Shown here: in pieces, positions 6,186-25,119 of the stretch
Position numbering within the stretch: position 1 is the first letter of the stretch
How the letters are laid out: every line of letters starts with the position of its first letter
NCBI GenBank assembly: GCA_947500445.1
Contig: CANMSB010000037.1
Coordinates: 1 to 43,266 of the forward strand
Length of the DNA stretch: 43,266 nt
Origin: an uncultured Flavobacteriaceae bacterium
Lineage (GTDB): Bacteria; Bacteroidota; Bacteroidia; Flavobacteriales; Flavobacteriaceae
Direction of reading: 5' to 3'
The notes under the pieces: generated by a model
What the model was told of the DNA's origin: nothing
Database searches by the model: none
The model's input: the letters and a program-made list of their open reading frames with translations, nothing else
Position numbers and translations under genes: made by a program

Positions 6186-9100
6186 TTACTTAATCATCAA
6201 TTTCATCGTCTTGACTTTTCCGGTACTTTTATCCTTTGTTTGTAGGATGTAAAGCCCTGGGGTAAAACCATTGATGTCCAAGGTATTGTTTCCCCTTGTT
6301 TTTTTGCCTTCCGAAACCGTTCTTCCCGAAAAATCGGTCAATTGGAACGAAAACTCATTTTGTGTATCCACGGTAACGCTTCCCGTAGATGAGGGGTTAG
6401 GGAATACGGAATAGGTAGCCGCTTTAGCACCCGAACCAGAAGCTTTAACCTCTACTGGTGCCAATGCCATATTATCTATTCTTTCGGGCCATCCACCTCC
6501 TGGCGGTACGATCAATATCTGTATTTGATAATCGGTGGTAGAAGGGGCCAAATCCGCAGCGATCGGAAAGGTAAATTCCAATGTTCCGGTACCTTCCGAG
6601 ACCAAAGCGGTACGGGTTTCAAAAATGGTGTAGGGAGCCACTCCCAATTGCCACCATCCTACTACCTCCCTATCGGTACTTGACGAATATTCAATAGTAA
6701 CCAGGGCCTCTCCACCCTGTTCTACTACCTGCGGTCCATCTACCGCTATGATGTCGTCCTCAAAAGCTACGGTAGCATCAGGGATCATCTCAAACGTAAA
6801 ACTGTCGGCCTTCAACCAATCGGCCAAAGCTTCTACGTTTATAGTGTGTTGTCCCTCGGTCAACGCCATGGTTACCGTTAGGTATCCCCAATAGGAATCG
6901 ATATCCAATGCACTAATGGAATCTTCATCCAAGGTGAACGCTGCAGCTTCTCCATCTACACGAAGCGCATAGCTCTGCACCAAATCACGATCTGTACCTG
7001 AAGCCTGCCCTACCCTCAAACGGACCGCCAAGGTATAGTCACCGGACTCGGAGGCCGTAAAATCAAACTTCAATTCATCTCCGGTATCGAACAAACGAAC
7101 ATGTTGTCCGTTACTAGCTTCCGGGTTAAAGGAATCGGGCGCAACACTATTATTGGTGCCGACATCGGCCACAACCTCAAAAACATCTTCGATTTCTATT
7201 ACATCGCTACCTCCCGTATCAGGTTCGCTATCGCTAACGTCCACACTTCCGATACTCAAGTTGTCCAAACGATCTGGCCAACCGCCCCCAATAGGGACCA
7301 ATATGGTCTGAAATTGATAAATATCGGCGGCTATTTCTACATCCGCTGGTATATTTAAAACAACCTCCACGGTACCGGTTCCGAGGTTTACCGGAACTGT
7401 TTGAGAATCAAAAGTAGTGTAAGGTGCGATTCCCAATTGGAAAGCAACGTTGATTTCCCTTGCCTCACTCGCGGAATAGGCTACACTAAGCGTGTAACTG
7501 CCACCTGGTGCCACCACATCCGGACCATCCACACTGACCACGTCGTCCTCAAAATCGCCGCCGATGAGTTCGAAAGAAAACCGATCCGCCTTTAACCAAT
7601 CTCGAAGCGCTTCGACCTGTATGTTATGAATTCCGGCGGTAAGCGAAGTCGTCAATACCATTTCGCCCCAATGGGAATCCACATCTAGCTCGGTAATGGT
7701 AGCTTCATCGAGTTCAAAGGTGGCTACTTCACCGTCTACACTAATTTGATATTCCGTAGCCAGGTTCGATTCCGTACCTGTCGCCTCTCCTACCCGAAGT
7801 CTCACGGCCAACCTATACTCGCCGTCCTGGGCCGTGTTGAAATCAAAACGCAATGCGTCCCCGGCATCGAACAACCGCACGTGAAGGCCATTGCTTGCTT
7901 CCGGATTATAGTCATCCACACTGACGGAATTGTTGTTCCCGACATCACTGACCACTTCATATACATCCTCTATTTCTAAAATACCCTCGGTATTCCCCGG
8001 GGGTGGCGTACCATCCGTAACATCGATTCCCGTTACGGGCAAACTGTCGATCAAATCGTTAAAGCCACCGCCAGCAGGTACGATATACACTTGAAATTGA
8101 TATTCGTCCTGAGCGATCGGCACGTCTTCCGGTATGGTCAATGCTACCGTAATCTGCCCGTTACCGGAGGCTACCGGTGTTACCACGGCATCGTATACCG
8201 TATATGGGGTTATTGCCTGTTGAAAGGCAACCACCACCTCCCGGTCCACACCCGCAGTATAATCGACCACCACTTCTTGAACGCTACCCGGGGCAACTTC
8301 TTCGTTAACTGTAACGGCACTAATATCATCCACATAGGTAGCATCGTCCTCCGATAGGCCAAAATCAAAACGATCGGCCTTTGACCAATATTTGCTCACC
8401 GCTACCACAACGGTGTGGGTTCCTTCGGAAAGGTACCGGGCAGCTTTTAATTCTCCCCAATAAGTGTCTCCGTCCAAGTCCGATATCGTGTCTTCGTCCA
8501 AATCAAAATCGGTGACTACCTCACCATCTATGGAAATCTCATAATTCGGTGCCAAACTGGTCGGGGTTTCCGAGGCTTCGCCGACCCGCAATCGTAGGGC
8601 CAAGTCGTATTTGGCCGTAATACCCACTTCAAAATCGAAACTTAGGGCATCGCCACAATCAAAAAGCCGTACAAATCCTCCGGCGCTGGCCCCTGCGTTG
8701 GAGCCGTCCGCTACGATATCGCTTTTATCACCTGCTTCCTTGTATACTTCAAAAACATCTTCGATCTCAAGGCTACCTGCAACGGCCCGCTCCACATTGG
8801 GAACCGGAGATTCCCCTCCATTACGAGCCACATAATTGGCCAGAAGCTTGATATAACTACTTTGATAGTAAATAGCTGGCTCTACAAGGGCCCATGGGCT
8901 TTCGCTTGCCCCGCCGATGTAATTGTTCTCATCGCTATATGCTTTTAGTCCGGGTTGGTCACCCAATAACGCATTTTGGTAAACGACACCGCCTAAGGCG
9001 ATTTTAGTACCCCCGTTCGCCAATGGGTTTACCCCACCGGTTATGAATCCCGGCGCGGGCCCTACGCCATTGGCCGTACCGTCATAGGCACCGCCGGGTA

Positions 9101-10751
9101 CGAACCAGGTATGCCAGAGCTCATCGGAACTGAATTCGGCCCCATAATCGTACATATTGCTAAGAAAAACCATTCCCAGCGGGTTGCTCCCATGGAAGTA
9201 GTGCAGAATACCATCTGCAGTTTTCTCGTATTCGGAGTGGGCCTCTTCATCCAAACCGTAGTTTAAATAATCATAATTGTCGGTCGCCTGTCTTGCCAAA
9301 AGGGCATTGCTTCCCCAATTCAAAAAGTATGGGTTTACCTGATAAAAATCTTGATCATCGTTCAAAACATATCCTCTTGCCTCTCTCGTGCGGGCACTCT
9401 CTTTATGGGAACGAATGGCATTTGCCGTAGCACCGTCCGCATTGGGTAATGTGGTATAGTATAAAATGGCCTCGCTTTGGTGTGCGCGATAGACGCCCCA
9501 ATCGCCTGAAACAAAGGGTCGGACCGTATTGTAATTCGCTATAACAAAGTTGTTGTATTCCGCCTTTCCCGTGGCTTCATACAAGTAAACTGCCGCGGTA
9601 ACGGCTTCCGCCACGTTTTCGGAAAGATAATGGTCACCGGGACCATCGGCATCCCCCGCCTCTATTTCCCCGTTGTCGCAAATTGCGGCCTTATCGGGCG
9701 CATTGGTATACGCCTGCCACGCCAATTCGGCACGGTTCAAAAGCGTTTCGGCATAAGCGGCCTCCGAAGGAAAATCCCGTAACACTACCGCACCATGTGC
9801 CATCATACCGGAAGCGGTTATGGCCGCGGCCGGACAGGTTTGTGCGTACCATCGCTCCCTAGTATCGGAGCTTGGTGGCGAAACATAGTTAAAATCCTCC
9901 CGTATTCCCGCTTTGCTGTGCACCGTTCCGTCCTCGTTCTGCATTTTTTGTATCCAGTCCAGTTCCCATTTTATTTCATCCAATAGGTCGGGAAGGGCAT
10001 TGGTGTTTTCGGGAATACGCAATTCGAGTCTATTCCATAACTCCGGATGTTGTTGGTAGGTGGTCAACAATTGATGAACGGGCGTTGTGGCAAAAGTGAT
10101 ATACTTGTTCGGGTCACCGGCATCGATCCATCCCCCGCTGACATCTTTGGTCTCCTCACCGTACAGGTATTTTGCTTCGGTATCCTGTCCCGCACCCAAA
10201 TACCAAGGTCCATCGGTCCATCGTGAACCAGAGCCGTATGCCCCTGTTTTATCTTGGGCCATGCGTTGGTAATAAAACGTTTCTACCGCTACGCGCAGTA
10301 TGTTGTCATATACCGAGTTACTGATTTCAAATACGTTGGACGCCACCTTGTTCCCCCCTTCTTCGGTAGCCTCTATATAATAGGTGCCGGCGGCACAGTG
10401 TTTCGAGAAATCGAACCACCAGCCCGAATCGCCCGAGAGTGCGTCCGTGCCACCATCGTTCCAAAGCGTTGCCATGGCTTCGAATGCCACCGTATCATCC
10501 GATACCTTTCGCAGTACTACGGGAACGGTCGCGTCCAGATCAATTCCGGCACCGGCATTGAAGCCTTCCATGGCCTTAGCAATAATCGCCTTCTTTTTGG
10601 CGGTTATCGGATATCCAAATTGGTCTATCCGAATGTAGTTCTTTTTGGTATTGATGGCCTGGCCGAACAGTGAGGCCGAACCCAACACCAGAAAAAATAG
10701 CCCTCCTAAAACAAAGGCTTTTTTAAATTGGTCGTGTAATGTTGTTTTCAT
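6186..10751 (-). CDS. GH9-A: CelD_N-type GH9 glucanase with three CBM35-like/Ig-like repeats and T9SS domain
   Basis: 1521 aa from the ATG at 10751, chosen because a signal peptide begins there (MKTTLHDQFKK, hydrophobic core, SLFGQA); an upstream in-frame ATG at 10796 would bury it. Order: signal peptide 1-32, CelD_N Ig-like domain (about 33-140), GH9 catalytic domain (about 140-640) with IDAGDPNKY (D210, D213) and the acid Glu in LVEPAIYYQ (E624). Three tandem pairs then follow, each a CBM35-like module (DSYWG/WLKAD-type signature) plus an Ig-like module (YQFQ..IVP.GGG), at about 655-915, 923-1175 and 1182-1430. A T9SS type A sorting domain (1440-1521; FPNPSSTGSV) ends the protein. Predicted secreted endo-beta-1,4-glucanase-like enzyme attached to the cell surface or released by T9SS; exact substrate (cellulose, mixed-linkage glucan, xyloglucan) unknown. 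Largest of five neighbouring GH9 genes. Confidence 0.93.
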   Translation of the reverse strand: MKTTLHDQFKKAFVLGGLFFLVLGSASLFGQAINTKKNYIRIDQFGYPITAKKKAIIAKAMEGFNAGAGIDLDATVPVVLRKVSDDTVAFEAMATLWNDGGTDALSGDSGWWFDFSKHCAAGTYYIEATEEGGNKVASNVFEISNSVYDNILRVAVETFYYQRMAQDKTGAYGSGSRWTDGPWYLGAGQDTEAKYLYGEETKDVSGGWIDAGDPNKYITFATTPVHQLLTTYQQHPELWNRLELRIPENTNALPDLLDEIKWELDWIQKMQNEDGTVHSKAGIREDFNYVSPPSSDTRERWYAQTCPAAAITASGMMAHGAVVLRDFPSEAAYAETLLNRAELAWQAYTNAPDKAAICDNGEIEAGDADGPGDHYLSENVAEAVTAAVYLYEATGKAEYNNFVIANYNTVRPFVSGDWGVYRAHQSEAILYYTTLPNADGATANAIRSHKESARTREARGYVLNDDQDFYQVNPYFLNWGSNALLARQATDNYDYLNYGLDEEAHSEYEKTADGILHYFHGSNPLGMVFLSNMYDYGAEFSSDELWHTWFVPGGAYDGTANGVGPAPGFITGGVNPLANGGTKIALGGVVYQNALLGDQPGLKAYSDENNYIGGASESPWALVEPAIYYQSSYIKLLANYVARNGGESPVPNVERAVAGSLEIEDVFEVYKEAGDKSDIVADGSNAGASAGGFVRLFDCGDALSFDFEVGITAKYDLALRLRVGEASETPTSLAPNYEISIDGEVVTDFDLDEDTISDLDGDTYWGELKAARYLSEGTHTVVVAVSKYWSKADRFDFGLSEDDATYVDDISAVTVNEEVAPGSVQEVVVDYTAGVDREVVVAFQQAITPYTVYDAVVTPVASGNGQITVALTIPEDVPIAQDEYQFQVYIVPAGGGFNDLIDSLPVTGIDVTDGTPPPGNTEGILEIEDVYEVVSDVGNNNSVSVDDYNPEASNGLHVRLFDAGDALRFDFNTAQDGEYRLAVRLRVGEATGTESNLATEYQISVDGEVATFELDEATITELDVDSHWGEMVLTTSLTAGIHNIQVEALRDWLKADRFSFELIGGDFEDDVVSVDGPDVVAPGGSYTLSVAYSASEAREINVAFQLGIAPYTTFDSQTVPVNLGTGTVEVVLNIPADVEIAADIYQFQTILVPIGGGWPDRLDNLSIGSVDVSDSEPDTGGSDVIEIEDVFEVVADVGTNNSVAPDSFNPEASNGQHVRLFDTGDELKFDFTASESGDYTLAVRLRVGQASGTDRDLVQSYALRVDGEAAAFTLDEDSISALDIDSYWGYLTVTMALTEGQHTINVEALADWLKADSFTFEMIPDATVAFEDDIIAVDGPQVVEQGGEALVTIEYSSSTDREVVGWWQLGVAPYTIFETRTALVSEGTGTLEFTFPIAADLAPSTTDYQIQILIVPPGGGWPERIDNMALAPVEVKASGSGAKAATYSVFPNPSSTGSVTVDTQNEFSFQLTDFSGRTVSEGKKTRGNNTLDINGFTPGLYILQTKDKSTGKVKTMKLMIK

Positions 10752-11210: not shown

Positions 11211-11221
11211 CAAAACTTCCT

Positions 11222-14053
11222 TTATTCTACAATCAATTTAGATGTGCTTCGGTTCCTTGAAAACATATCGGTCACTTCAAGGATGTAAAGCCCCGAACGT
11301 AGTCCGTCCAAACTCAACTCTCTTGTACCTGCTTGCATTTCCGGGCTATTGAACACCTCTCTGCCTAGAATATCCAATATCCGTACCCTAAAGTCGTTTT
11401 GCGAAACAAGGTTGACAACTCCGTTACGGACCGGATTTGGAAAAAATGAAATTGCTGGTGCTCCGGTTTCCGAAAGTTCCGTTTTTAATGAAGCGCTACC
11501 ACAACTGCGGTTCCCAAAATTGAAATTTCCATTCGTATATAGTTTATCGGGGTCATAAGCACAACAAGAGGAGGTCTCCGTTGCCTGTGTCTCCGTTTGC
11601 AGTCGTGCACCACAAATCTCGATCCAATCGACCTGTAGGTTTTTGTCGCTGCAGCTTCCCGAGCTCCCGTCATTGGTAAAATGGACGGAAACCGCTCCGG
11701 AAGTAAATCCGTTATAGGTATAACTGGTAAAAGCGGTACTGACGTTGTTCCATGTCTTTACGGTAGTTCCGTCCACACGCAATTGCATAGTCTCCGTACC
11801 GCAATCCCCTTTTGCACGGACAACAACGGAACCGGTTTCCGGACCGCCACAGCTGCGTGACCCAAAATTAAAGTTGCCATTGGTGTACAATTTATCTGGA
11901 TCTCCCAAGCAACAGCTTGCCGTTTCGGTAGCTTCGGTTTCGGTCTGGAGTCGTGTACCACATACTTCTATCCAATCGACCTCTAAATTTTTATCGCCAC
12001 AGCTTCCAGAACTACCATTGTTGGTAAAATGGACACTGACCTCACCAGAGGCAAATCCATTATAAGTATACGTGGCAAAGGAGGTGCTTACATTGTTCCA
12101 AGTTTTAACTGTGGTTCCGTCCACACGCAGCTGCATTGTTTCCGTTCCACAATCGCCTTTGGCCCGTATGGTAATGGAATTGCCGCTACTTGGCGGTGGC
12201 GGTGGGGTTACGGTAGTCTTCTCAAAATCCAGACGGTCCGCTTTTAGCCAATTCGCCTTTGCCTTGATCCTTACGGTATGGCTTCCAGCGGAAAGGTTGC
12301 GCGTATGGGAGATGCGTCCCCAATAGGTATCGCCGTCCAAGGCCGAAGCGGAGCCCGATACAAAACTGAAGGTACGTATCGTACCGTCTATTCGGACCTC
12401 ATATTGGCCAACCATATTGTTGGTGCTGCTCGCCGATAGCTCTCCGGTACGCACGCGCAGATCGATCTTATAATCACCGGACTCCGCAACCGTAAATGTC
12501 GTGGATAATTCGTCGTTGGTTTCGAACAAACGTACATATTGCCCGCTGCTAGCGCCCGGGTTACCGTTATCCACACCAACACTAAAACTGCCTCCAGCCT
12601 CGTTGAACACAGTAAAGTTGCCTTCTATTTCCTGAGAACCCTCCGTAACGGGATCTGGATCCGGGACAGGGGTACCACCGCCCGTTTCTTTTACCATCAT
12701 CGCTGCCATTCCCACGAAAAACGCTTGTTGGCTGATAGCCGGTTCCGTCGATTTTACATCGGTACGTACTTCGTTAAAACTGTCGTTCTGTTGCGGACCA
12801 CCAGCCAATGAACCTACGTGGACGTGCTTATCGGGGGCGGTACTGTTCTGTGGAACACCACTTGCGCCACGATGATGCGTAATCGTTGTAGGGTTGTTCC
12901 CGTAGCCTACTACATAGGAGCTATTTCTTGGGTTGTCCCCAAGCACATAATCAATTTGTTGAAAGGCAAAGTTTCGATATTTGTTATACTTTGAGAAACC
13001 GGTACCGCGAAGCTCCGCATAGAAATAGGCGCCAAAGGCCATCGATTGTGCCAAGGAAGCGGCCAAAAAGTTACTTCTGTAGTAAAGGCCTCCATTCGTT
13101 CTTGGAGCGTTATCGATCTCATTGTCCAACCAGTTTTCAGCAGAGTTGTAATATTTTTGTTCACCGGTAATTTGTGCCATCAACAGGTATCCTTCATACG
13201 CGTGGTCCCGGTAATGCATCATCCAACCTACGTTATTGCTCACTTTATTGTATTCCGTTTTGGCACGGTCAAGATATTGATTTTCGTTCGTGGCCTTGTA
13301 CAACCATATTGCCGCAACAAAAAGATCATCGTCAAAATCGTTCATCGGGTAGGGTTCGGGAGAACCCAGTTGATCGTAGTGGTTTCCTCTATGGTTGTCC
13401 GCGAAACTGAAAAGGTCCTTGGCATGCTGCAACAAGGAGGAACTGTAAGAGGCGTCCTCGTTTTTGAACACCATCGCAAGACTGGCAAAGGCGGCAGCAT
13501 TACTGGCCGCCATGTGCGTACCGGGTTTGGAAGTGTTGATAGTCGTTACGCTCCTATCGATACTTGGTGACTGCAAACTCGGTGCAACCCACTCATTGTG
13601 CTCTGGATTGCTACCGGTCTTGGCACGACCGATCTGCGCATAAAATACGTTGGCCGATGGATGGAGCTTTATCATAAAATCGCCCGATAGTCGCAAATGG
13701 TTCAATAAATGCGTTTTATTTCCGGAATTGTCGAAGGATGGCCTATACTGTAAATAGGACCAGGCCAGCACACGGGTGGCCTGCGCGGACACATAGTTGA
13801 ACTTGGTATGATCGCCTGCATCGTGCCAACCTCCCGTAAGGTTTTTGCCAATATCCGAACCATCGTTCATGTGGCAGTTGTTCCGCCAAGCGGCCCTGCT
13901 CCAAGATGGTTGCGGACCACAGATCTGACCATCGTAGAATTCTATGGATTTGCCTAATACATCGCTATAGTTGAAATCGCCTTGGGCTATGGCCCAATTA
14001 CCATAGCAACAGAATAGGAATAACAGTATACTGTTTAGATTATTTTTTAACAT
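11222..14053 (-). CDS. GH9-B: short-form GH9 glucanase with CBM35-like and two CBM60-like modules, T9SS domain
   Basis: 943 aa from the ATG at 14053, where a signal peptide starts (MLKNNLNSILLFLFCCYGNWAIAQ); the in-frame codons upstream to 14131 encode a charged extension unlike a signal. The GH9 domain begins directly after the signal (about 25-465), with no CelD_N domain. HDAGDHTKF supplies D78/D81, and the acid Glu is E437 in STEPAISQQAF. A PDPDP linker follows, then a CBM35-like module (471-610, DGDTYWG and WLKADRLDFE), a proline linker, and two Cys-rich CBM60-like modules (about 624-736 and 742-849; RAKGDCGTE start, VDWIE.CG..LQTET). The T9SS type A domain is 869-943. From the CBM35 to the C-terminus it is very similar to GH9-C although the catalytic domains differ. 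The gap to GH9-C is 118 bp, so co-transcription is possible. Confidence 0.93.
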   Translation of the reverse strand: MLKNNLNSILLFLFCCYGNWAIAQGDFNYSDVLGKSIEFYDGQICGPQPSWSRAAWRNNCHMNDGSDIGKNLTGGWHDAGDHTKFNYVSAQATRVLAWSYLQYRPSFDNSGNKTHLLNHLRLSGDFMIKLHPSANVFYAQIGRAKTGSNPEHNEWVAPSLQSPSIDRSVTTINTSKPGTHMAASNAAAFASLAMVFKNEDASYSSSLLQHAKDLFSFADNHRGNHYDQLGSPEPYPMNDFDDDLFVAAIWLYKATNENQYLDRAKTEYNKVSNNVGWMMHYRDHAYEGYLLMAQITGEQKYYNSAENWLDNEIDNAPRTNGGLYYRSNFLAASLAQSMAFGAYFYAELRGTGFSKYNKYRNFAFQQIDYVLGDNPRNSSYVVGYGNNPTTITHHRGASGVPQNSTAPDKHVHVGSLAGGPQQNDSFNEVRTDVKSTEPAISQQAFFVGMAAMMVKETGGGTPVPDPDPVTEGSQEIEGNFTVFNEAGGSFSVGVDNGNPGASSGQYVRLFETNDELSTTFTVAESGDYKIDLRVRTGELSASSTNNMVGQYEVRIDGTIRTFSFVSGSASALDGDTYWGRISHTRNLSAGSHTVRIKAKANWLKADRLDFEKTTVTPPPPPSSGNSITIRAKGDCGTETMQLRVDGTTVKTWNNVSTSFATYTYNGFASGEVSVHFTNNGSSGSCGDKNLEVDWIEVCGTRLQTETEATETASCCLGDPDKLYTNGNFNFGSRSCGGPETGSVVVRAKGDCGTETMQLRVDGTTVKTWNNVSTAFTSYTYNGFTSGAVSVHFTNDGSSGSCSDKNLQVDWIEICGARLQTETQATETSSCCAYDPDKLYTNGNFNFGNRSCGSASLKTELSETGAPAISFFPNPVRNGVVNLVSQNDFRVRILDILGREVFNSPEMQAGTRELSLDGLRSGLYILEVTDMFSRNRSTSKLIVE

Positions 14054-14171
14054 GTTAAAAATTGATTTTTTGTTCGTGTTTTTTAAGCTTCGTTTTTGAA
14101 AAATAGGTGCCGGTTCGTAACGGACCGCCACTAAAATGACAGTCCGTTTTTTTAAACCTTAGCTAACTAAA

Positions 14172-17100
14172 TTATTCGATAATGAGTTTTGAAGTACTCG
14201 ATTTTTTGGTTAATTCATCTGTCATTTGTAAGATGTACAGCCCCGAATGAAGTCCGTCCAAATTCAACTCCTGTGTACCTGCTTGCATTTCCGGGCTATT
14301 GAACACCTCTCGGCCCAACAGATCGAGCAAACGGACCCTAAAGTTGTTTTGCGAAACAAGGTTGATTACCCCGCCACGAACCGGATTTGGGAAAAACGTG
14401 ATCACATTTTCCGCAATGGCTTCCTCTGGTGCTGCGGCGACCTTTAACGAAACGCTGCCACAGGTTTGCGATCCAAAGGCAAAGTTACCGTTGGTAAACA
14501 ATTTATCCAAGGACGTTGCACAACAAGTGGACGTTTTGGTGGACGCGGTTTCCGTCTGTAAACGTGCGCCACAAATCTCGATCCAATCGACCTCCAAATT
14601 TTTATCGGTACAGCTTCCGGAACTTCCGTCATTGGTAAAGTGGATGGAGACCGCTCCCGAGGTAAACCCATTATACGTATAATTGGTAAAACTCGTACTT
14701 ACATTGTTCCAGGTCTGCACCGTGGTACCGTCCACGCGCAATTGCATGGTCTCCGTTCCACAATCTCCTTTTGCCCTAACAACAATGTTTCCACTACCGC
14801 CACTGCCGGAACCGGTCAAGTTGCCTTTACCATCAAAAACGATATACCCGAAAACCTCTGTCGCATGCGCGAGTTCAGCATCTTTGGACGCTTCTTCTTG
14901 AAAAAAGACATCGATTCCCGTTGCGTTAAAGGTATTGGAGGTACTATTGGCGCGGTATCGGATTACCCCGGCATCACCACCATCCGTGGTTTGGCTATGG
15001 CCGATAAGTACCCTGTTATTGCTATTATAAGTTTGTGAAAAGGAAATTCTTTTATCCTGATCGGTGATTTCGTTCGCCGAGTTGACGACCTCAAACTTGC
15101 CTACACCACTACCGTTGGCGCTGCCACGTTCCATGGCGACCCAGGCGACGGTCTCGTTCACATGCGACCGATTGCCGTCCAAGGTACCGCCATTTTCCTC
15201 CTCCTGAATGTAGAGTTCGAAACCCGTGTTAGTCACTTTCCTCACGCGAACATTGATCGCCTGCGCCTCATTATTGGTGACGGCTTGTACCAATACTGTT
15301 GGTTTGGCCGAAAATGCCGAGGAAAAGGTGACTGTGGTAACTGCGGTACCTGTTGTTTTTTTACCGGCTATGATCTTGTTGCCGTTCGCCATGGTATGCG
15401 TTCCTTTTTCAACGACCATATACCCTACCGTTTCGGCGTTATGCGATTGGTCCAAGTACTCCCATTCATCCACTTGCCATTGAAAATTGGTGCCGCCACT
15501 GTTGCGCACTCGAACGGTTGCCGCCTGGCCGCCATACATGCCCAATGGCCCCATGACCACTACGGGATCGGTATAACTGTTTGCATAGTTCACCGTTTTC
15601 CAATTCGCATTGGTACTTGAGGTTCCTACCTCTCCGAAAACATCGCCACTTCCACCGCCAGAGGTCTTGGCAAAATCCAACCGGTCCGCTTTCAGCCATG
15701 GTCCTTTTGCCTTGATCCTTATGGTATGGCTTCCCGCGGAAAGGTTCCTAGTGTGGGAAATTAGGCCCCAATAGGTATCCCCGTCCAGAGCGGATGCGGA
15801 CCCGGATACAAAACTAAAGGTTCGCACTGTTCCGTCTATCCTGACTTCATAATTACCGACCATATTACTGGTACTGTTAGCAGATTGCTCACCAGTCCTT
15901 ACCCTCAGATCAATTTTATAGTCTCCCGCCTCACCTACGCTAAAGGTGGTGGACAATTCGTCATCGATATCGAACAATCGAACATATTGTCCGTTGCTCG
16001 CTCCTGGATTGGAACCATCGACACCGATACTAAAGCTGGTTCCGGCTTCATTGAACACAGTAAAATTGCCTTCTATTTCCTGAGATCCTTCGGTAACCGG
16101 GTCCGGATCGGGACCAGGGTTGGAACCACCTCCACCATTGGCCACATAATTAGCCAACATCTTTACGTAACTTGCTTGATAGTAAATACCGTTCTCTACT
16201 AGGGCATAAGGTGCTTCGCTCTCCCCCACGATGTAATCGTTTTCATCTGCAAATGCCTTTAAGCCAGGTTGGTTGCCTACGGTTTGACCGTTATACTTTA
16301 CTCCACCGATCGTAACCACCGTATTCGGCCTGTTGATAACCGGGTTAGCACCTCCGGTCACAAACCCGGGTGCCGGTCCCACGATATTAGAACCATTTGG
16401 TGTACCATCATATTTTCCTTCATTGAAGAACCATGTATGCCACATTTGATCAACCGAGAAATCCCCGCCATAATTATACATATTCGTCAAATAACTTATT
16501 CCAAAAGGGTTTATTCCATGAAAATAGTGCAAAATATTGTCCGATACCTCTCGGTAATTGTTGTGGTTGCCGCTGTCCAGACCATAGTTGATATAGTCAT
16601 AGTTATCCGATCCCTGTCTGGCGATCAAACTGTTACTACCCCAGTTCAGGTAAAATGGGTCGAATCCGTAAAAATCGTTGCTAGGATCCACTTTGTAAAT
16701 CGTGGGTTGCCTTGATATACTCGTATTCTTGCGATCGATAATCGCATTTTTAACAGCATTGTCAGCATTGCTCAAGGTAGTATAGTAGAGTAAAGACTCG
16801 CCTTGGTTGGCCCTGTAAATCGCCCAATCCCTATCGAACATGGAACGAATCTGGGTATAGTTGTTCTTGACAAAGTCGTTGTATTTCGATTTTCCGGTAA
16901 GGTCGTAAAGATAAACCGCAGCACAGACCGCCTCGGCTACGTTTTCCAAAAGATACTGATTCCCAGGACCGTCGGCATCCCCTGCTTCAATTTCCCCATT
17001 ATCGCAAATGGCATCCTTATCCGAAGCATTGGTGTAGGCGTCCCAAGAGAGCTCAGCTCTCGAGGTAAGATCGGACACGTAGGAAGATTGCGAAGGAAAG

Positions 17101-18062
17101 TCTCTTAACACCACCGCCGCATGTGCCATCATACCGGAAGCCGTAATGGCCGCGGCAGGACAGGTTTGGCTGTACCAGCGCTCTCTCGAATCGGTACTTG
17201 GCGGGGATACGTAAGCACCATCTTCCTTAATTCCCGCCTTTGCGTGAACGGTTCCATCATTCCGTTGCATGGACACCACCCAATCCACTTCCCACTTTAT
17301 CTCGTCCAAGATATCAGGAAGGTCATTGTTGTTTTCAGGAATACGCAAGCTAAAACTCTTCCAAAAATTCTCATGTTGTTGATAAGTGGTCAATAGGTTA
17401 TGTACCGCAGGTGTAGCAAAGGTCACATATTTGTTGGGGTCACCGGCGTCAATCCAGCCTTTCCCTACATTACGACGCTCATTGCTGTATAGATATTTTG
17501 CATTGGTATCTTGATTGGTCCCCAAATACCATGGACCATCTACCCAGTCTGATCCGGAAGCGTGGCTCGCTGTTTTATTTTGACCTATTCTTTGGTAAAA
17601 AAAACTTTCCATCGCAACACGTAGTACATCATCATATACGTTGTCGTCTATTTTGAACCGATTGGAATCTACCGTATTGCCATTGGTTTCGGTCACCCTT
17701 ATATAATAGGTACCCGGCGTAGTATAAGAACTGAAGTCAAAATACCAACCGCGGTCCCCGGAAAGTTCATCCGTACCGCCACCGTTCCAAACCGTAGCCC
17801 TTGCTTGATAAACGATAGCATTATCACTATTTTTTCGCAACTGAACGTTTACATTAACATTGAGATCAATACCGGTACCCGCATTGAAACCGTTTACGGC
17901 TTTCGCTATAATGGCCATTTTAGTGGCATTTTCCATGTAACCAAATTGGTCTACACGTACGTAGTTCTTTTTTGTGTTGATGCCTTGTGCCTCACCATGG
18001 AAATTTCCAAGGAAAACACACACCAACAAAAACAATAATAAGCGTGGAGTAATTTTAACCAT
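14172..18062 (-). CDS. GH9-C: CelD_N-type GH9 glucanase with CBM35-like, lectin-like triple repeat, CBM60-like and T9SS domains
   Basis: 1296 aa from the ATG at 18062 (the frame extends two codons to a TTG at 18068). Signal peptide MVKITPRLLLFLLVCVFLG...GEAQ; CelD_N domain (about 28-135); GH9 domain (to about 650) with IDAGDPNKY (D205, D208) and E623 in LVENGIYYQ. Then a CBM35-like module (663-800) and about 280 residues (804-1085) made of three repeats ending HNAETVGYMVVEKG, HVNETVAWVAMERG and HATEVFGYIVFDG, which resemble H-type lectin domains. A Cys-rich CBM60-like module (1094-1202) and a T9SS type A domain (1220-1296) complete it. The catalytic half resembles GH9-A and the C-terminal half resembles GH9-B. 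Likely a secreted beta-glucanase with several binding modules. Confidence 0.93.
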   Translation of the reverse strand: MVKITPRLLLFLLVCVFLGNFHGEAQGINTKKNYVRVDQFGYMENATKMAIIAKAVNGFNAGTGIDLNVNVNVQLRKNSDNAIVYQARATVWNGGGTDELSGDRGWYFDFSSYTTPGTYYIRVTETNGNTVDSNRFKIDDNVYDDVLRVAMESFFYQRIGQNKTASHASGSDWVDGPWYLGTNQDTNAKYLYSNERRNVGKGWIDAGDPNKYVTFATPAVHNLLTTYQQHENFWKSFSLRIPENNNDLPDILDEIKWEVDWVVSMQRNDGTVHAKAGIKEDGAYVSPPSTDSRERWYSQTCPAAAITASGMMAHAAVVLRDFPSQSSYVSDLTSRAELSWDAYTNASDKDAICDNGEIEAGDADGPGNQYLLENVAEAVCAAVYLYDLTGKSKYNDFVKNNYTQIRSMFDRDWAIYRANQGESLLYYTTLSNADNAVKNAIIDRKNTSISRQPTIYKVDPSNDFYGFDPFYLNWGSNSLIARQGSDNYDYINYGLDSGNHNNYREVSDNILHYFHGINPFGISYLTNMYNYGGDFSVDQMWHTWFFNEGKYDGTPNGSNIVGPAPGFVTGGANPVINRPNTVVTIGGVKYNGQTVGNQPGLKAFADENDYIVGESEAPYALVENGIYYQASYVKMLANYVANGGGGSNPGPDPDPVTEGSQEIEGNFTVFNEAGTSFSIGVDGSNPGASNGQYVRLFDIDDELSTTFSVGEAGDYKIDLRVRTGEQSANSTSNMVGNYEVRIDGTVRTFSFVSGSASALDGDTYWGLISHTRNLSAGSHTIRIKAKGPWLKADRLDFAKTSGGGSGDVFGEVGTSSTNANWKTVNYANSYTDPVVVMGPLGMYGGQAATVRVRNSGGTNFQWQVDEWEYLDQSHNAETVGYMVVEKGTHTMANGNKIIAGKKTTGTAVTTVTFSSAFSAKPTVLVQAVTNNEAQAINVRVRKVTNTGFELYIQEEENGGTLDGNRSHVNETVAWVAMERGSANGSGVGKFEVVNSANEITDQDKRISFSQTYNSNNRVLIGHSQTTDGGDAGVIRYRANSTSNTFNATGIDVFFQEEASKDAELAHATEVFGYIVFDGKGNLTGSGSGGSGNIVVRAKGDCGTETMQLRVDGTTVQTWNNVSTSFTNYTYNGFTSGAVSIHFTNDGSSGSCTDKNLEVDWIEICGARLQTETASTKTSTCCATSLDKLFTNGNFAFGSQTCGSVSLKVAAAPEEAIAENVITFFPNPVRGGVINLVSQNNFRVRLLDLLGREVFNSPEMQAGTQELNLDGLHSGLYILQMTDELTKKSSTSKLIIE

Positions 18063-18125
18063 AAACAATAAAATTTTAAGTGTTAATTAACCAGAGGTTT
18101 CCGATGTTTACATCATCTGGAAACT

Positions 18126-18193: not shown

Positions 18194-18914
18194 AATTTCA
18201 GCGCTATTTAATCGTTAAATCATCAAAAAAACGACATAATTATAGGAATACGATAAAAAAATGATGAATTCATACCATAGGCGTGCAGTTCGTCGATGGT
18301 AAAAAAATGGCAATGTTGAAGAAATCTGAAGAACGCCTTAACAAAAAGAAATGATTTCCTTCTTCTGTTTTTGACAAAATAGTATAAGCTTTGTTTCAAA
18401 ACGGAGCAATTTTTTTCAGGACTTGTCCATAACCGTTCTGACAGCACGATGCTAAAAAAAAATTTAAATAACTCATTATCATCTACTTAAAAGTATCAAT
18501 AGGATTTCACCTAGTGAATTTTTGGTTCCGCTAACCTGCCCTATTGGTTGTATAAAAGCCAATCGATGATAATGGCAAGTCCGTTTTACCGCAATTGAAC
18601 TTACCATACCAGTGCCCCGTAGGCTAATCCGATAACATCAGTTGGACCACTCCGCTTTAACAAATATTTACAGTACAAAACTACTTTTTGGCACTACTTT
18701 CGAACACTGTTTTTTTGTCTGGAAAAATTCAATCCTAAAACCAGTTCATACGCCGCATTATCACGGCATGTGATTCATCGCATCAGTATATTATCTCTCG
18801 CACAGCTATGGATATTGGTTTATCGTTTCTTTTTTTTAGCTATGCATTTGGATAAGCTGGTTTTAGGTTCAGAAATGGCATTTTATGAATCAGCATAACC
18901 ATAACGACCGTTTA
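18194..18914. other. Intergenic region upstream of GH9-C
   Basis: About 720 bp, A/T-rich, without a credible gene; the 74-codon frame at 18223-18447 (-) has no recognisable features. It holds one copy of the 16-mer TCTGTTTTTGACAAAA at 18364-18379, identical to 25577-25592 upstream of GH9-E. The rest I cannot explain. Confidence 0.55.
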
Positions 18915-18985: not shown

Positions 18986-21826
18986 TCACCGAATGCTTAA
19001 CTTGGAAGTATATGATTTTAGGGTAACGGCATCGGTCAATCGCAATAGATAGATGCCCGAGGGAATCGTTTTAACGAAAATACGATGATCGCCGCCCGTG
19101 TTTCGGGTGTCCGTCAATACTTCCCTTCCCAACAGATCATAGATTTCCACGGAGAAGCCGTTCTTTGCCGAAACATGCAACATTCCATCGGTGACCGGAT
19201 TGGGAAAAGCGGCCAATGTAGCCTTTTCTTCTTCGGTGCCGATGAGCTTGGTTTTCAAGGCAACGGAACAACTGCGATTTCCAAAATTGAACTGACCGTT
19301 GGTAAACAGTTTTTCCTTATTCCCCAAACAACAGGTTGAATTCTCTTCTACCGCTTCCGTTTCCGTTTGCAACCTTCGCCCACATACCGTGATATAATCG
19401 ATGGTAAGATTTCGGTCCGAACAAGATCCGCTGCCGTCGTTGACAAACCGCACCACAATACGTCCGCCGGAATAACCACTGTACACGTAATCTGCAAAAC
19501 CACCGTTGGAGATACCGGTAAAGCGCTTTTTTTGTGCTCCGTTCACGTAGAGTTCCATTACCTCGTCACCACAATCCCCCTTGGCACGTATAACAATATT
19601 TCCCGAAGGACTACTCCCACAAGTTTGGTTGCCGAAGTTAAAGTTTCCGTTGGTATACAATTTATCCCGGTCCCCTTTGCAGCAGCTGGAAGTTTCGGTC
19701 GCCTTGGTTTCCGTTTGCAGGCGTTTTCCACAGACCTCAATCCAATCTACCTCCAGATTCCTATCACAACCGTTCGTTCTGGCCGCATTTACGAAATGAA
19801 TACTTACCCTCCCGGAACTGAAACCGTTATATTCGTAAACGGTATAATTGGTCCTGACAGTGTTCCAGATCTTTTTTACGACATTATTGACCCGTAATTG
19901 CATCCTCTCCGAACCGCAATCGCCCTTGGCCCGAATTCTGATCGTCCCATTTCCGGGCGGTGTGGACTGCCCTCTTAATACATTGACATCATTCCTCACT
20001 TTTGAGGAAAGTCTGTTACTGAAACTACCTCCCTTTGGAACAATGTACACCTGAAATTGATAGTCATTGTTCTTTACCGGAACATTGCTCGGAATGGGCA
20101 CATTGATGGTCGCCGTTCTTGAACCTTTGGCTACGGCCAACTTGACTTCATTAAATTTTTGATAGTTTGGATTTCCGTCCCTTCGGAACAACACCCCAAT
20201 GTCACGATTCGTTTTGGCGCTGTACTTTACGGTAAGCTGGGCAGTTTTTCCCTGGGTCACCTGTCCGGGGGCCGTGATGGAAACAATTTCGTCCTTTCCA
20301 CTTGGAGGCTGGGTGCCACCGTCCGATTCTTTTACCATTTGGGCCATTAAGCCTACAAAAAATGCCTGATTGTTGATGGAAGGTTCCGTGGTTTTGACAT
20401 TCCCCCGGTCATTGTCAAAATTATCGTTGGGGTCGCTGGGCCCGCCTACCAAAGCACCTGTCAACTCATAGGTATCATTGCGCTTTTCTATTATTCTGTC
20501 GGTGTTGCTCGCCGTACGGTGATGTACCCTTCTGGGAAACTTTGTACCGATACCGGGAATGTAGGACATCTTTAGTTTATTGTCCCCAAATATGTAGTCG
20601 ACTTGATCAAAAGCGAATCTGCGATATCTATTGTATTTGGAAAACGAAGTTCCCCTAAGTTCTGCATAGTACAATGCGCCGTATGCCATGGAGGCACCCA
20701 ACGAGGCTGCTAAAAAATTACTTCGAAAATAAAGTCCGCCATTGGTCCTTGGAGCATCTAACTCCCCATCGAGCCAGACCTCGGCCGCATTGAAATACTT
20801 TGCTTCCCCTGTCAATTTGGACATCAGCAAAAATCCCTCATAGGCATGGTCCCTATAATGCATCATCCACCCTTTTGCGTTTTTTACCGAGGGGTGATTG
20901 AACTCGCTTTCGGCCTTGCTCTTATATTTTTGCTCTCCGGTAGCCCGCCACAACCATACGGCATTGGTAAAAAGATCATCCTGATAATTATTATCGGTCA
21001 CTTCATCATTTTTTTTGCGAAGGGGGTATGGCTCGATACTCCCCCTGAAATTTGGGGTAAGGTCATCGTGGTATCCCCTATGCTTGTCGGCAAAGTCATA
21101 CAATTCCCTGGCATGGCGCAACAATTTATTGCTATACTGGCTATCGCGGTTTTTGAAAACGATAGCGGTCGCTGCCAATGCCCCGGCCGTTGCGGCCGCC
21201 ATATGGGTGCCAGGGTTTTTGGTAGTGATTTTTTTTGCACTGCGATCGATGTTCGGACTTTGCCTGTGTGCGGGCACCCATTCCCCGTGTTCAGGATTGG
21301 GAGATGCCTTAGCGACCCCTATCTGCGAATAATATTCGTTTTTGGATGGATGCATTTTTATCATATAATCTGCACCCCATCGCAAATGGCGCAATAAATG
21401 TTGCTCGTTTCCGGTATTGTTAAAAGACCCGCGGTAATCGATAAGGGACCAGGCCAACACCCGCATTGCATGTGCGGTGATATAATTGAATTTGGTATGG
21501 TCGCCGGCATCGTGATAGCCACCGGTCAGGTCCCTGTTTACGTCTTTTCCATCGTTCATATGGCAATTAAAACGCCAATCGAAACGGACCCAAGATGGTT
21601 GTTTACCACAGATCTGTGCATCATAAAATAAAATGGACTTTGTAAGTCCATCGTCAAAATCATTATTGTTTTGTGCGCTGATGAAAAAGGTCGCCATTAA
21701 TAGAAACACCGATACCATCAATGTTCTGATATTATTAAAGGATGGCTTCCCAATTATAAGGTGTTGTTCTCTTCCCGCTAGAAAGATTTTGGCATCGCCA
21801 AAATTTTTGGAGGTACTCTTACTCAT
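18986..21826 (-). CDS. GH9-D: short-form GH9 glucanase with Ig-like and two CBM60-like modules, T9SS domain
   Basis: 946 aa from the ATG at 21826. The hydrophobic signal (TLMVSVFLLMATFFISAQ) starts only near residue 35, so either the signal peptide has a long N-region or translation starts at M37 (21718). The GH9 domain (about 55-505) lacks CelD_N and resembles GH9-B: HDAGDHTKF gives D106/D109, and TTEPSINNQAFF gives the acid Glu E481. Next comes one Ig-like module (510-615) with YQFQVYIVPKGG, the same module type as in GH9-A, then two Cys-rich CBM60-like modules (about 627-737 and 742-852) and a T9SS type A domain (872-946, FPNPVTDG). Unlike GH9-B it has no CBM35-like module. It has its own promoter-like block and strong terminator. 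Confidence 0.92.
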   Translation of the reverse strand: MSKSTSKNFGDAKIFLAGREQHLIIGKPSFNNIRTLMVSVFLLMATFFISAQNNNDFDDGLTKSILFYDAQICGKQPSWVRFDWRFNCHMNDGKDVNRDLTGGYHDAGDHTKFNYITAHAMRVLAWSLIDYRGSFNNTGNEQHLLRHLRWGADYMIKMHPSKNEYYSQIGVAKASPNPEHGEWVPAHRQSPNIDRSAKKITTKNPGTHMAAATAGALAATAIVFKNRDSQYSNKLLRHARELYDFADKHRGYHDDLTPNFRGSIEPYPLRKKNDEVTDNNYQDDLFTNAVWLWRATGEQKYKSKAESEFNHPSVKNAKGWMMHYRDHAYEGFLLMSKLTGEAKYFNAAEVWLDGELDAPRTNGGLYFRSNFLAASLGASMAYGALYYAELRGTSFSKYNRYRRFAFDQVDYIFGDNKLKMSYIPGIGTKFPRRVHHRTASNTDRIIEKRNDTYELTGALVGGPSDPNDNFDNDRGNVKTTEPSINNQAFFVGLMAQMVKESDGGTQPPSGKDEIVSITAPGQVTQGKTAQLTVKYSAKTNRDIGVLFRRDGNPNYQKFNEVKLAVAKGSRTATINVPIPSNVPVKNNDYQFQVYIVPKGGSFSNRLSSKVRNDVNVLRGQSTPPGNGTIRIRAKGDCGSERMQLRVNNVVKKIWNTVRTNYTVYEYNGFSSGRVSIHFVNAARTNGCDRNLEVDWIEVCGKRLQTETKATETSSCCKGDRDKLYTNGNFNFGNQTCGSSPSGNIVIRAKGDCGDEVMELYVNGAQKKRFTGISNGGFADYVYSGYSGGRIVVRFVNDGSGSCSDRNLTIDYITVCGRRLQTETEAVEENSTCCLGNKEKLFTNGQFNFGNRSCSVALKTKLIGTEEEKATLAAFPNPVTDGMLHVSAKNGFSVEIYDLLGREVLTDTRNTGGDHRIFVKTIPSGIYLLRLTDAVTLKSYTSKLSIR

Positions 21827-21873
21827 AATCTTTTTTTTAGGATTTAAGGTTTAGTTTTTTGAGCCTCGCTATT

Positions 21874-21939: not shown

Positions 21940-22304
21940 CAATAAATCTTAAAAAATTACCAAATGCACATAAAAAATCACAAAAAATTAAAAATATGAT
22001 TAACAATTGATCATTATATTCAAAATTATTGATTCTTATAAACAATTGATTACCAATTTGTTCAATTGAAAAAGATTTTTTAGTAAACAAAAAATCGAAT
22101 ATTAAAACCCTCTTTTTTGACAAAATACTATTGCATATGAGGTTTTATCCTGTACTCTACTACTAATTCTTGAAAGGTGCACTAGGGATCACCTACCATT
22201 CTAATTTCTAAATTCAGTGCTTACTACCTTACCTTGGTGCCACCACCAAAGAAGTGATTCTAGTTCTGGACCGCTATTGCGGCCAAACCATGGCAAACAG
22301 AGAA
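21940..22304. other. Intergenic region upstream of GH9-D
   Basis: No credible gene. 21940-22110 is extremely A/T-rich (a 62-codon minus-strand frame at 21935-22123 looks like a by-product of composition). A further motif copy, CTCTTTTTTGACAAAATACT, lies at 22110-22129. The remainder to 22304 shows nothing I can name. Confidence 0.5.
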
Positions 22305-22333
22305 AGCCCCGACTCCTTGCGGTTGTCGGGGCT
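22305..22333 (-). terminator. Terminator of GH9-E
   Basis: AGCCCCGAC (22305-22313) and GTCGGGGCT (22325-22333) form a perfect GC-rich 9-bp stem, 36 bp after the GH9-E stop. The following minus-strand T-stretch (TTTCT) is short but acceptable. Confidence 0.75.
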
Positions 22334-22368
22334 CCTACCCTTATCACAGTTACTACCAATACTTGAAA

Positions 22369-25119
22369 CTAATCGATTACAATTTTAGAGGTTTCGGAAG
22401 TTCCGATCAACAAATTCGTCAGTTCCAAAAGATACACCCCACTCTGGACTCCTTGAAAACGGATTTCCTTTGTGCCCTGTACCCCCTTTTCGACGAAAAC
22501 GGTACGCCCGACCAAATCATAAAGGGTTACATTATAGGATGCTTCCGAAGTAATGGTTACCGTTTTATTGGATGACGGGTTGGGAACAACCTTGAACGCC
22601 CCGGAAAAACCGTTGCTCCCCGACAAATTAGATTTCAATTCGGCACCACCAAAAACGACGTTTCCGAACAAAATAAATCCATTGCAATTCAGCATTTCCG
22701 AATTGGATCCGCCGCAGGTTCCATTCTGCGACACTCCCGTATTCAACCGCTGGTCTTCGGCCTGTATCGTTTGTGCCCCTACCTGAATATAATCTACCTG
22801 TAAATCTTTTGCGGGGTCACCGTTATCGTTTATATAACGCACTTTAATATTGCCCGTTCCCGAAGGCACGTTTTCAAAACTGTAGTCCTGATACTCCGTA
22901 CCGACCGTATTGGTGTTACCGAAATACTGATTGTTTATCTGAATGCGAAATGCTTCTCCTCCCGAGGTTCCCTTGGCCCTTACGATCAAGGTGTTCAAAT
23001 CTCCTGTTGGGTCTGGGTCTGGATCTGGGTCTGGGTCCGAATCTGGGTCTGGGTCAGTATCCGTATTCGGGTCGGGCGCTACCAAGATGGTATTGGCCAC
23101 ATAGTTGGCCAAAAACTTAATGTAACTGGCTTGGTAATTGTTCGCATTTTCCACGAAACGGTACGCCTCTCTCCCGCGCGAATATTCCTTATTCGGGTTC
23201 CATCCATTTTCATCGGAGAACTTTTTGAGCAGCGGCTGGTTCTCCACAATATCCGTATAACGGTTCCCGCCTAAATAGATGTCGATATATCCGGCGTTCG
23301 CTTCCTTGTTCACACCACCCGATATAAATCCGGGAACGGGCCCTACTTTGGCCGAACCTGTTACAAAGGACCTGCCATCAAAATCGGTACCGTCCTTAAA
23401 CCAGGTATGCCATAATTGATCCACGGAAAAATCGCCACCGTACTCGTACATATTCGTCAAATACGTAATTCCCAAAGGATTTACACCATGAAAGTAATGC
23501 AAGATCGCATCGGCCATTCGCTGATACTTTTGTTGATGGTTGGGAAGATCAATAGCATAATTCAGGTAATCCAGATTATCAGATCCTTGACGTGATAAGG
23601 CCGAATTACTGCCCCAATTTAAATCGGGATTCCGTATACCATATAGGGATACCGCATCCTTAGGATCGTAAAACTCTTCTTTTTCATTGATTTTTGCTTC
23701 TTTGGCACTTTTTATTTTATTCACGGCCCCCAGGTTGGCCCCGTCCAAACCAGTGTAATACAGAAATGCCTCCCCTTGGGTTGGGCCTAACAATCCCCAG
23801 GTTCCTCTAGGTCGAAACAATTTTGCTTTTTCATAATGCGAGATGAAAAATGAATCATACTTCGTATCCCCGGTCATCGCGAACAGGTATACGGCAGCAG
23901 CAGCAGCTTCTGCATAATGTTCATTTAAAAATATTCGTAACGGACCGTTTCCATCTCCCGCTTTAATGGCGGTATACTGACAGGTAATATTGGCAACTTC
24001 GGCATCGGTAATCACTCCCGGAGTAATCAAATCCAATGGCTCCGCATACCCTAGGTAGTATTCCCAAGCCAAGACGGCCTTCTCCAGGAGCAGATCTGAA
24101 TATTCGGTATCAAAATCCTTATATACCAAGGCGGCATGTGCCAACATTCCAGCGGCTGCCATGGAAGCACTGGGACAGGTTTGCGAATAAAAACGAGGGC
24201 GGTCGTCGGTGCTTGGCGGAGATATGTAGGCATCCTTTACTACCCCAACTTTTGATATGACCGCACCATCGGGATCTTGCATGGCCATGACCCAATCCAA
24301 TTCCCACTTAATTTCATCCAAAATATCGGGAAGGTTTCCACCGGCTTCGGGAATGCGAAGTGCAAAATCGTTCCAAAATTCAGGGTGTTGCTGATACGTA
24401 GTCAGTAAATTGTGTACCGGTGGAGAAGCCAGGTTGATATATTTATTGGGGTCTCCAGCGTCTATCCAACCTTTACCGACGTCCCTAGCGCTACCGCCAG
24501 GATATTTTTCATCGTAATTGCATGGTGACAGTGCCGCGGTATCTTGAAATTTTCCCTGGTACCATGCGGTATCTACCCAATTAGCGCCTGAACCGTATTC
24601 CGCCGTTTTGTCCTGTCCGATACGTTGGTAGTAGAAGGTTTCCAAAGCAACCCGAAGCACATCTTCATATACGGCATCACCGATCTTGAAGGTATGGGAG
24701 TCTATTTTGGACCCATTTTCATCGGTAACCTGTATATAGTACTCCCCTGGTGTTTGAAATTCGGTAAAATCAAATGTCCAACCGCGGTCTCCCGAGGCCA
24801 CATCCAAAAGGGAACGTTCTTCATCCTGCTCTTCCGAATTTCTCCAGATGTTGGCCTTTTTTTGAAGTACTACCTCACCTTCAAGGGTTCGCAGCTCCAC
24901 GGCAATATCGGCATCCAAGAGAATGCCCTGATCGTTATTAAAACCCTCTAGGGACTTTGCGATAATAGCCTTCTTTTCAGCTTTTTCCATGTAGCCAAAT
25001 TGGTCTACCCGAATGTAATTTTTATCCGTGTCGATTCCCTGCGAAAAACCGGAAACCATGGCCCCAACGATGAAAAGGAGCAAAAGCAAGCCCTTTCGAA
25101 ATATGTCATTTTTTTCCAT
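22369..25119 (-). CDS. GH9-E: CelD_N-type GH9 glucanase with Asp-Pro linker, CBM60-like and T9SS domains
   Basis: 916 aa from the ATG at 25119. Signal peptide MEKNDIFRKGLLLLLFIVGAMVSGFSQ; CelD_N domain (about 28-150); GH9 domain (to about 675) with IDAGDPNKY (D220, D223) and the acid Glu E657 in FVENANNYQ. A 25-residue linker of DPD repeats (about 682-706) is encoded by near-identical codon repeats. The single CBM60-like module (710-818) is of the classical type without the Cys-rich pattern of B-D: RAKGTSGGEAF start, DLQVDYIQV, then QAEDQ..NTG and NCNGFI. A T9SS type A domain ends the protein (about 843-916, VPNPSSNK). It is the simplest member of the cluster, with promoter-like motifs about 460-510 bp upstream. 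Confidence 0.93.
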   Translation of the reverse strand: MEKNDIFRKGLLLLLFIVGAMVSGFSQGIDTDKNYIRVDQFGYMEKAEKKAIIAKSLEGFNNDQGILLDADIAVELRTLEGEVVLQKKANIWRNSEEQDEERSLLDVASGDRGWTFDFTEFQTPGEYYIQVTDENGSKIDSHTFKIGDAVYEDVLRVALETFYYQRIGQDKTAEYGSGANWVDTAWYQGKFQDTAALSPCNYDEKYPGGSARDVGKGWIDAGDPNKYINLASPPVHNLLTTYQQHPEFWNDFALRIPEAGGNLPDILDEIKWELDWVMAMQDPDGAVISKVGVVKDAYISPPSTDDRPRFYSQTCPSASMAAAGMLAHAALVYKDFDTEYSDLLLEKAVLAWEYYLGYAEPLDLITPGVITDAEVANITCQYTAIKAGDGNGPLRIFLNEHYAEAAAAAVYLFAMTGDTKYDSFFISHYEKAKLFRPRGTWGLLGPTQGEAFLYYTGLDGANLGAVNKIKSAKEAKINEKEEFYDPKDAVSLYGIRNPDLNWGSNSALSRQGSDNLDYLNYAIDLPNHQQKYQRMADAILHYFHGVNPLGITYLTNMYEYGGDFSVDQLWHTWFKDGTDFDGRSFVTGSAKVGPVPGFISGGVNKEANAGYIDIYLGGNRYTDIVENQPLLKKFSDENGWNPNKEYSRGREAYRFVENANNYQASYIKFLANYVANTILVAPDPNTDTDPDPDSDPDPDPDPDPTGDLNTLIVRAKGTSGGEAFRIQINNQYFGNTNTVGTEYQDYSFENVPSGTGNIKVRYINDNGDPAKDLQVDYIQVGAQTIQAEDQRLNTGVSQNGTCGGSNSEMLNCNGFILFGNVVFGGAELKSNLSGSNGFSGAFKVVPNPSSNKTVTITSEASYNVTLYDLVGRTVFVEKGVQGTKEIRFQGVQSGVYLLELTNLLIGTSETSKIVID

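Follow-up and report, generated by a model that had tools for sequence, protein, structure and literature searches.

A five-gene array of T9SS-linked GH9 glucanase genes at a fixed site in a flavobacterial genus, with an apparently chimeric member

Five adjacent GH9 genes with T9SS sorting domains

The window analysed here, 43,266 nucleotides long, is one entire contig of a draft assembly of 177 contigs from an uncultured Flavobacteriaceae bacterium. It carries five adjacent minus-strand genes, A to E (Table 1), each encoding a GH9 domain and a T9SS type A sorting domain and none containing an internal stop codon. A first-pass annotation, made from the letters alone, had described this array and proposed domain searches as a check, and the searches found both domains in all five proteins: GH9 scores ranged from 136.7 to 360.8 bits (Pfam cut-off, 27.7) and scores for the T9SS type A C-terminal domain (TIGR04183) from 31.7 to 48.8 (cut-off, 23). 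CelD_N exceeded the Pfam cut-off in A, C, and E only, which reproduces the annotated order of CelD_N / short / CelD_N / short / CelD_N. The accessory modules, identified with Pfam and with profiles built for this analysis, are arranged differently in every gene, again as annotated. The CBM35-like label in B, where the Pfam match falls below the cut-off, and in C, where Pfam lists none, derives from similarity to the modules of A.

Table 1. Positions and modules of the array genes, the parts of gene C, the border genes, and a remnant in a related genome
Feature	Position	Strand	Details
Gene A	6186..10796	-	1536 aa; likely start M16 at 10751; signal-like stretch - CelD_N - GH9 (8844-10310) - (CBM35-like + Ig-like)x3 - T9SS type A
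Gene B, short type	11222..14131	-	969 aa; likely start M27 at 14053; GH9 (12707-13969) - CBM35-like (12221-12673) - CBM60 x2 (11924-12175, 11576-11827) - T9SS
Gene C, apparent chimera	14172..18068	-	1298 aa; CelD_N - GH9 (16158-17636) - CBM35-like (15669-16121) - H-lectin region (14799-15653) - CBM60 (14535-14786) - T9SS
Gene C core, CelD_N + GH9 of A-type	16158..17969	-	by best matches of 100-residue windows
Gene C short-type tail	14178..16121	-	CBM35-like, H-lectin region, CBM60, T9SS; by best matches of 100-residue windows
Gene C leader	18240..18320	-	similar to short-gene leaders of L002 and L003
Gene D, short type	18986..21826	-	946 aa; GH9 (20345-21655) - Ig-like (20000-20293) - CBM60 x2 (19694-19945, 19346-19597) - T9SS
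Gene E	22369..25119	-	916 aa; CelD_N - GH9 (23119-24669) - CBM60 (22750-22992) - T9SS
HAD-family hydrolase	5186..6004	+	one border of the array site across the genus
430-aa gene	25836..27128	-	unmatched in Pfam and NCBIfam; second border of the site across the genus
G304 scar	L054:4387-4741		degraded sorting domain (T9SS) of a short GH9 gene, flanked by what is left of the two spacers

Catalytic residues and putative signal peptides are likewise as annotated. All five proteins retain the DAGD motif, and a glutamate near the end of the GH9 domain, which we take to be the acid residue (the roles of both motifs being assumed here), occupies the expected spot in every protein, as judged for D by alignment to T. 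fusca E4 and for the other four by pattern. A signal-peptide-like stretch is visible by eye at the N terminus of all five; the likely start codons of A, B, C, and perhaps D lie within the listed open reading frames. Flavobacterial promoters follow a -33/-7 pattern, of which the six intergenic stretches contained no instance (0.28 expected by chance), and a sigma-70 scan gave no promoter signal (36 found, 34.8 expected).

Scanning with gene D identified three relatives, all uncultured Flavobacteriaceae, with an array at the same site. These loci, L001, L002, and L003, correspond to genomes G307, G308, and G306 of the window's genus, with identical coordinates and scores.

Surroundings and predicted function of the array

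To the left of the array lie the HAD hydrolase, IF-3, and threonyl-tRNA synthetase genes, followed at the contig end by a 5' piece of the 16S rRNA gene (1-278), which likely accounts for the assembly break. The roughly 17 kb to its right hold the 430-aa gene, dnaB, accA, an EamA transporter, an LptF/LptG-type permease, tgt, and further genes. Among the 20 window ORFs scanned outside the array, a set that leaves out several small ORFs (e.g., 3833-4177 and 4236-4658), no SusC/TonB or regulator gene adjoins it; an ArsR-type regulator at 42785-43174 is 17.7 kb away. A genome-wide profile search placed no SusD (PF07980) on the array contig versus 13 elsewhere. The annotated absence of a SusC/SusD pair and regulator directly at the locus thus holds for the scanned ORFs and the SusD search, and the neighbourhood comparison suggested with it agreed: the three relatives have the same genes next to the array. 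Because the genome has 13 SusD matches, two of them near other GH9 matches, the missing pair concerns the array and not the genome. The array thus lacks the SusC/SusD pair that defines a polysaccharide utilization locus, and comprises several T9SS cellulase-type genes outside such a locus, as in the Cytophaga-like, SusC/D-independent set.

Activity, substrate, surface location, and uptake route are what we infer from these domains. Each enzyme would cross the outer membrane via the T9SS and then be released or fixed on the surface, CBM60 and CBM35-like modules would bind wall polymer, and the GH9 cores would cut beta-1,4-glucan chains, the most likely polymer being algal or plant wall cellulose or mixed-linkage glucan; the soluble cello-oligosaccharides would enter through transporters encoded elsewhere. 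The T9SS machinery gene sprA (PF14349), the only component searched, is present in the genome, along with three GH3 matches and four open frames matching the PF00150 cellulase family; GH94 (PF17167) had no match in the genome. The substrate would be cellulose or another beta-1,4-glucan, probably of algal or plant walls. By sequence, the closest solved structure to B and D is T. fusca E4/Cel9A, and that to A and E is an endoglucanase (3x17). For E, the xyloglucanase BoGH9A ranks second among solved structures, which would fit a non-cellulose beta-1,4-linked target, such as xyloglucan or another matrix glucan. We consider such a target possible but improbable, given that E4 is the first match of both short proteins and that the best match of both A and E is named an endoglucanase.

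The binding modules bear on the same question. CBM60 is described as able to target beta-1,4-glucans and xylans in the part of the literature consulted (PMC4725902). Six of the genome's 13 CBM60 matches fall in the array; others occur in GH9 genes of contigs C2 and C32, in two beta-helix T9SS proteins (one combining CBM60 with CBM9 and H-lectin), and in a BNR-repeat protein whose rhamnosidase match falls below the cut-off. The occurrence of CBM60 and H-lectin on beta-helix proteins, and of CBM60 on the BNR/rhamnosidase-like one, is compatible with a non-cellulose target and means that CBM60 is no proof of a cellulose target; the array's binding modules may hold the enzymes on wall matrix polymers instead of on cellulose itself. 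One of the beta-helix T9SS proteins (L050:7031-11323) combines two CBM60 with CBM9 and H-lectin; it has some binding modules of the array but no GH9. We also modelled the first CBM35-like + Ig-like pair of A (pLDDT 70.7). Its Foldseek matches with E < 0.001 were mostly GH2 enzymes and arabinoxylanases such as CtXyl5A, with a GH26-CBM35 mannanase at 1.5e-3, and TM-scores reached at most 0.37 of the query among the best 50 rows, so that the model suggests at most a general beta-sandwich fold. For the Ig-like module, the PDB gave a single weak match, to a beta-agarase module (E 0.004). A model of the C tail (pLDDT 39.2) was too poor for use.

Beyond the array, the genome contains five further GH9 matches (10 in total): an adjacent pair on contig C2 and single ones on C4, C32, and C1. 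The C2 pair adjoins coproporphyrinogen oxidase and has T9SS domains too. A SusD match lies 6.6 kb from the C32 gene, and a SusC-type gene and GH16 are also close by; the gene encodes a single protein in which a phytase domain is fused to CelD_N-GH9-CBM60-T9SS (L045:4998-8597). The C4 gene, 7.4 kb from a SusD match, has no T9SS match and sits next to a same-strand sulfatase gene (L044:6881-10123), perhaps hinting at a sulfated substrate.

The first-pass annotation had gone further, proposing a secreted or surface multi-enzyme attack on a beta-glucan by paired forms with different cleavage modes. The GH9, CBM, and T9SS domains, together with sprA, support the multi-enzyme attack; for the paired cleavage modes we saw no support. 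A pairing in which each CelD_N enzyme and its short neighbour were selected together, one exo-acting or processive and the other an endoglucanase, would make the alternation adaptive. Two GH9 types that are clearly distinct (A is 25-27% identical to three short proteins over 611-727 aligned positions) do alternate, and a short gene beside an A-type gene is retained in all four array-bearing genomes. We take GH9 followed by CBM3c to mark the T. fusca Cel9A-type processive endoglucanase, whose processivity presumably needs the CBM3, yet none of the five proteins had a Pfam match to CBM3. The CelD_N type, searched with A and E, matches endoglucanases, a xyloglucanase, and cellobiohydrolases, array carriers hold two, three, or five genes, and gene C resembles a core swap on a short-gene chassis, all of which make a selected pairing unlikely.

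The mosaic make-up of gene C

Gene C looks like a chimera in which the catalytic core is of the CelD_N type but the leader, the first codons, and the tail are those of the short GH9 type. In 100-residue windows along the protein, the best match is of CelD_N type up to residues 601-700 and of short type from 651-750 on; the CelD_N-type best matches are A-type except at 501-600, where an E-type gene is best. The core is 64.0% identical to that of A (the B and D cores are 60.1% identical). Upstream, 81 nt of the C leader are 78% and 75% identical to the short-gene leaders of L002 and L003, and 54 nt are 78% identical to that of L001. The leaders are equally far from the start codon to within one base (178-258 versus 179-259 nt), and the first residues of C likewise resemble the L001-L003 short genes. 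In an all-against-all comparison of 12 leaders, those of A, B (just 118 nt), D, and E had no match to short-gene leaders at E 0.01. The C leader also shares a 16-nt match with the E leader (E 0.005).

The tail of C likewise points to short genes. Its CBM35-like module is sister to that of B (100/99) within a short-type group (100/100), and moving it to the A-type side was rejected at p 0.048 and 0.046 in two runs of an AU test on the same split. The B and C modules are 84.8% identical, more than B and its L001 counterpart (73.5%), though the cores of the latter pair are 90.4% identical. The T9SS domain of C is 75.3% identical to that of B versus 38.2% to that of A, and its H-lectin region occurs otherwise, among 16 GH9 proteins compared, only in the L002 and L003 short genes (55-56% identity). 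The T9SS and CBM60 trees have open forks around C. The full GH9 tree, which carried long-branch warnings for C4, C32, and C2b, joins the C core as sister to the four genomes' A-type cores (90/93), places D outside the rest of the short cores (100/98), and unites E with the first gene of L002 (97/99). A smaller CelD_N-type tree weakly rejected A and C as sisters (p-AU 0.030) and gave C no fixed place; the smaller trees do not settle B versus D. The topology tests on C are thus only just significant.

The simplest reading is that gene C is a short gene, still at its own leader, in which the catalytic core was replaced by a CelD_N-GH9 core; recombination would have put that core onto the short-gene chassis. 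Copying of a whole short + CelD_N pair (D-C from B-A or the reverse) would by itself yield the alternation and would fit the similarly deep B-D and A-C core identities. We disfavour this simple duplication and regard it as doubtful, as the leader, start, and tail of C are short-type and not A-type; the weak rejection of A and C as sisters also counts against it, bearing only on a copy within the window's own lineage. That the mosaic is an artefact of the draft assembly is very improbable, since a core only 64.0% identical to A is no misplaced copy of A, and two joins would be required with the frame intact over 1298 codons.

In L001, the short gene appears to be mosaic as well. Its second CBM60 clusters with the modules of E, the L002 E-type gene, and C32 (100/99) and has E as best match in two windows (51 and 43%), while the last windows of the gene are closest to C and short-type genes. 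Because C appears chimeric and the L001 short gene mosaic-like, the alternating order would owe something to module exchange between neighbours, and history seems to explain it, in part, better than paired cleavage modes do. Two mosaics, five module orders in the window, and the decayed scar in G304 (see below) lead us to entertain, tentatively, a standing recombination cassette, in which tandem GH9 paralogs at a fixed site serve as templates for one another. If so, cores, binding modules, and leaders would be swapped by homologous recombination, producing species-specific module sets, a natural domain-swap library.

The array site in relatives and its place among known systems

An array lies between the same two border genes in four of 10 genomes of the genus, with five, three, two, and two genes: L001 and L003 each have a short and an A-type gene, and L002 has an E-type, a short, and an A-type gene. 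The 430-aa border gene is 76-90% identical in nine of the 10 genomes searched. In the six genomes without an array, it directly adjoins the HAD gene; the border-gene matches of three of them end 8 to 16 bases apart, with no space for a remnant. We searched the gaps of the remaining three (355, 296, and 760 bases) and found a remnant in one, G304. It consists of the last 64 codons of a short gene, covering the T9SS domain, with two in-frame stops, and is flanked by 27 bases matching the L003 spacer before the short gene and 46 bases matching the spacer after it (89% each). This stop-ridden sorting-domain remnant indicates that G304 lost its array.

In the flank-gene tree, G304 clusters with the array-bearing G308 and G306 (100/100); the window and G307 join this group at 94/95. 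The four array-bearing genomes as a group excluding G304 were rejected on this tree, which the scar explains. The fewest array-state changes on the tree are two, which could equal two gains but for the G304 scar; with it, we read them as a single gain plus a single loss. A sub-clade of the genus probably acquired the array in one event at a single site; gene loss and recombination between its members would thereafter have altered it, the single gain and the recombination itself being what we infer. A simple expansion from two to five genes in the window lineage is no more likely than an older duplication with later losses, given that C and D fall outside their counterparts in all four genomes in the full GH9 tree.

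In the next genus (G001), the same site holds, by eye, TonB receptor, ankyrin-like, reductase-like, and other genes (L060:3718-15411). The site may be open to different cargo across genera.

Larger groups were sampled for GH9 genes as well. GH9 matches occurred in 48 of 299 genomes sampled from the family, where, besides G000, only G177 had more than two, across five contigs (for the window's own genome, the best five of 12 candidates were scored); in G266, two weak matches (66 and 54 bits) lie side by side. In a sample of 395 genomes of the class, 70 had a GH9 match; neighbouring pairs occurred in G400 and G492 (both strong) and in G380 (weak). For eight genomes, the window's own included, the best four candidates were scored, so that larger arrays may be present there. 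A literature search, in a limited library and largely by listing, recognised no such GH9 array or module exchange.

The closest published systems, as far as the portions of the sources consulted go, share the general plan. In Cytophaga hutchinsonii and Sporocytophaga myxococcoides, extracellular GH9 endoglucanases with T9SS sorting domains work without a SusC/D locus, the T9SS is required for crystalline cellulose use, and the neighbouring tags CHU_1335 and CHU_1336 of C. hutchinsonii are both GH9 (PMC6247017). These soil cellulose specialists also use many GH5 and GH8 enzymes, and the portion consulted describes no five-gene GH9 array or module exchange (PMC6247017). The array genome, for its part, has 13 SusD matches, two within 8 kb of other GH9 genes. 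Cel5A-D of Ca. Paraporphyromonas polyenzymogenes, a genome without SusC/D loci, are tandem one-family cellulases with differing modules, three of four with T9SS CTDs; they differ in being GH5_2 and from the rumen, and their cluster includes GH94, GH3, and two putative transporters, none of which was seen beside the array (PMC5831590). Fibrobacter succinogenes has surface cellulases proposed to be exported and fixed by the T9SS, among them the products of adjacent tags FSU_2361 and FSU_2362, GH9 with a C-terminal domain proposed as a T9SS signal, but from mixed GH families, with no such GH9 array in the text consulted (PMC6851124). Aquimarina CelAly and PL14+GH9 enzymes are also multimodular and from marine Flavobacteriaceae, and CelAly homologs have a T9SS CTD and Ig-like binding modules; these enzymes differ in joining a cellulase or glucanase to an alginate lyase in a single chain, again with no GH9 array described there (PMC13235733). 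The array is a flavobacterial, GH9-only variant of these published T9SS cellulase sets outside SusC/D loci.

Taken together, we consider it likely that the array is a SusC/D-free set of T9SS-exported GH9 beta-1,4-glucanases that was gained at one site and altered by loss and internal recombination. Sequence comparison establishes the domains, the fixed site, the loss with its scar, and the mosaic make-up of gene C; the history of the array and the mosaic nature of C appear well supported, some tests being borderline. The enzymes themselves are of a known kind, and their function as secreted beta-1,4-glucanases encoded outside a polysaccharide locus would be ordinary for Bacteroidota, with Cytophaga as an example.

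The evolutionary behaviour of the array is more interesting than the predicted and ordinary mechanism of its enzymes. To our knowledge, the origin of the parts of multimodular wall-degrading enzymes has so far mostly been inferred from distant comparisons. Here, one genus offers a single site in filled, partly filled, emptied, and apparently never-filled states, together with a gene whose leader, core, and tail appear to differ in origin, and the exchange of core and tail becomes testable, with the relatives of chassis and core as neighbours. With the array, the T9SS cellulase sets published for loci other than SusC/D ones gain a flavobacterial example, and comparison of close relatives indicates a set that is lost and rebuilt via part-swapping among its own members.
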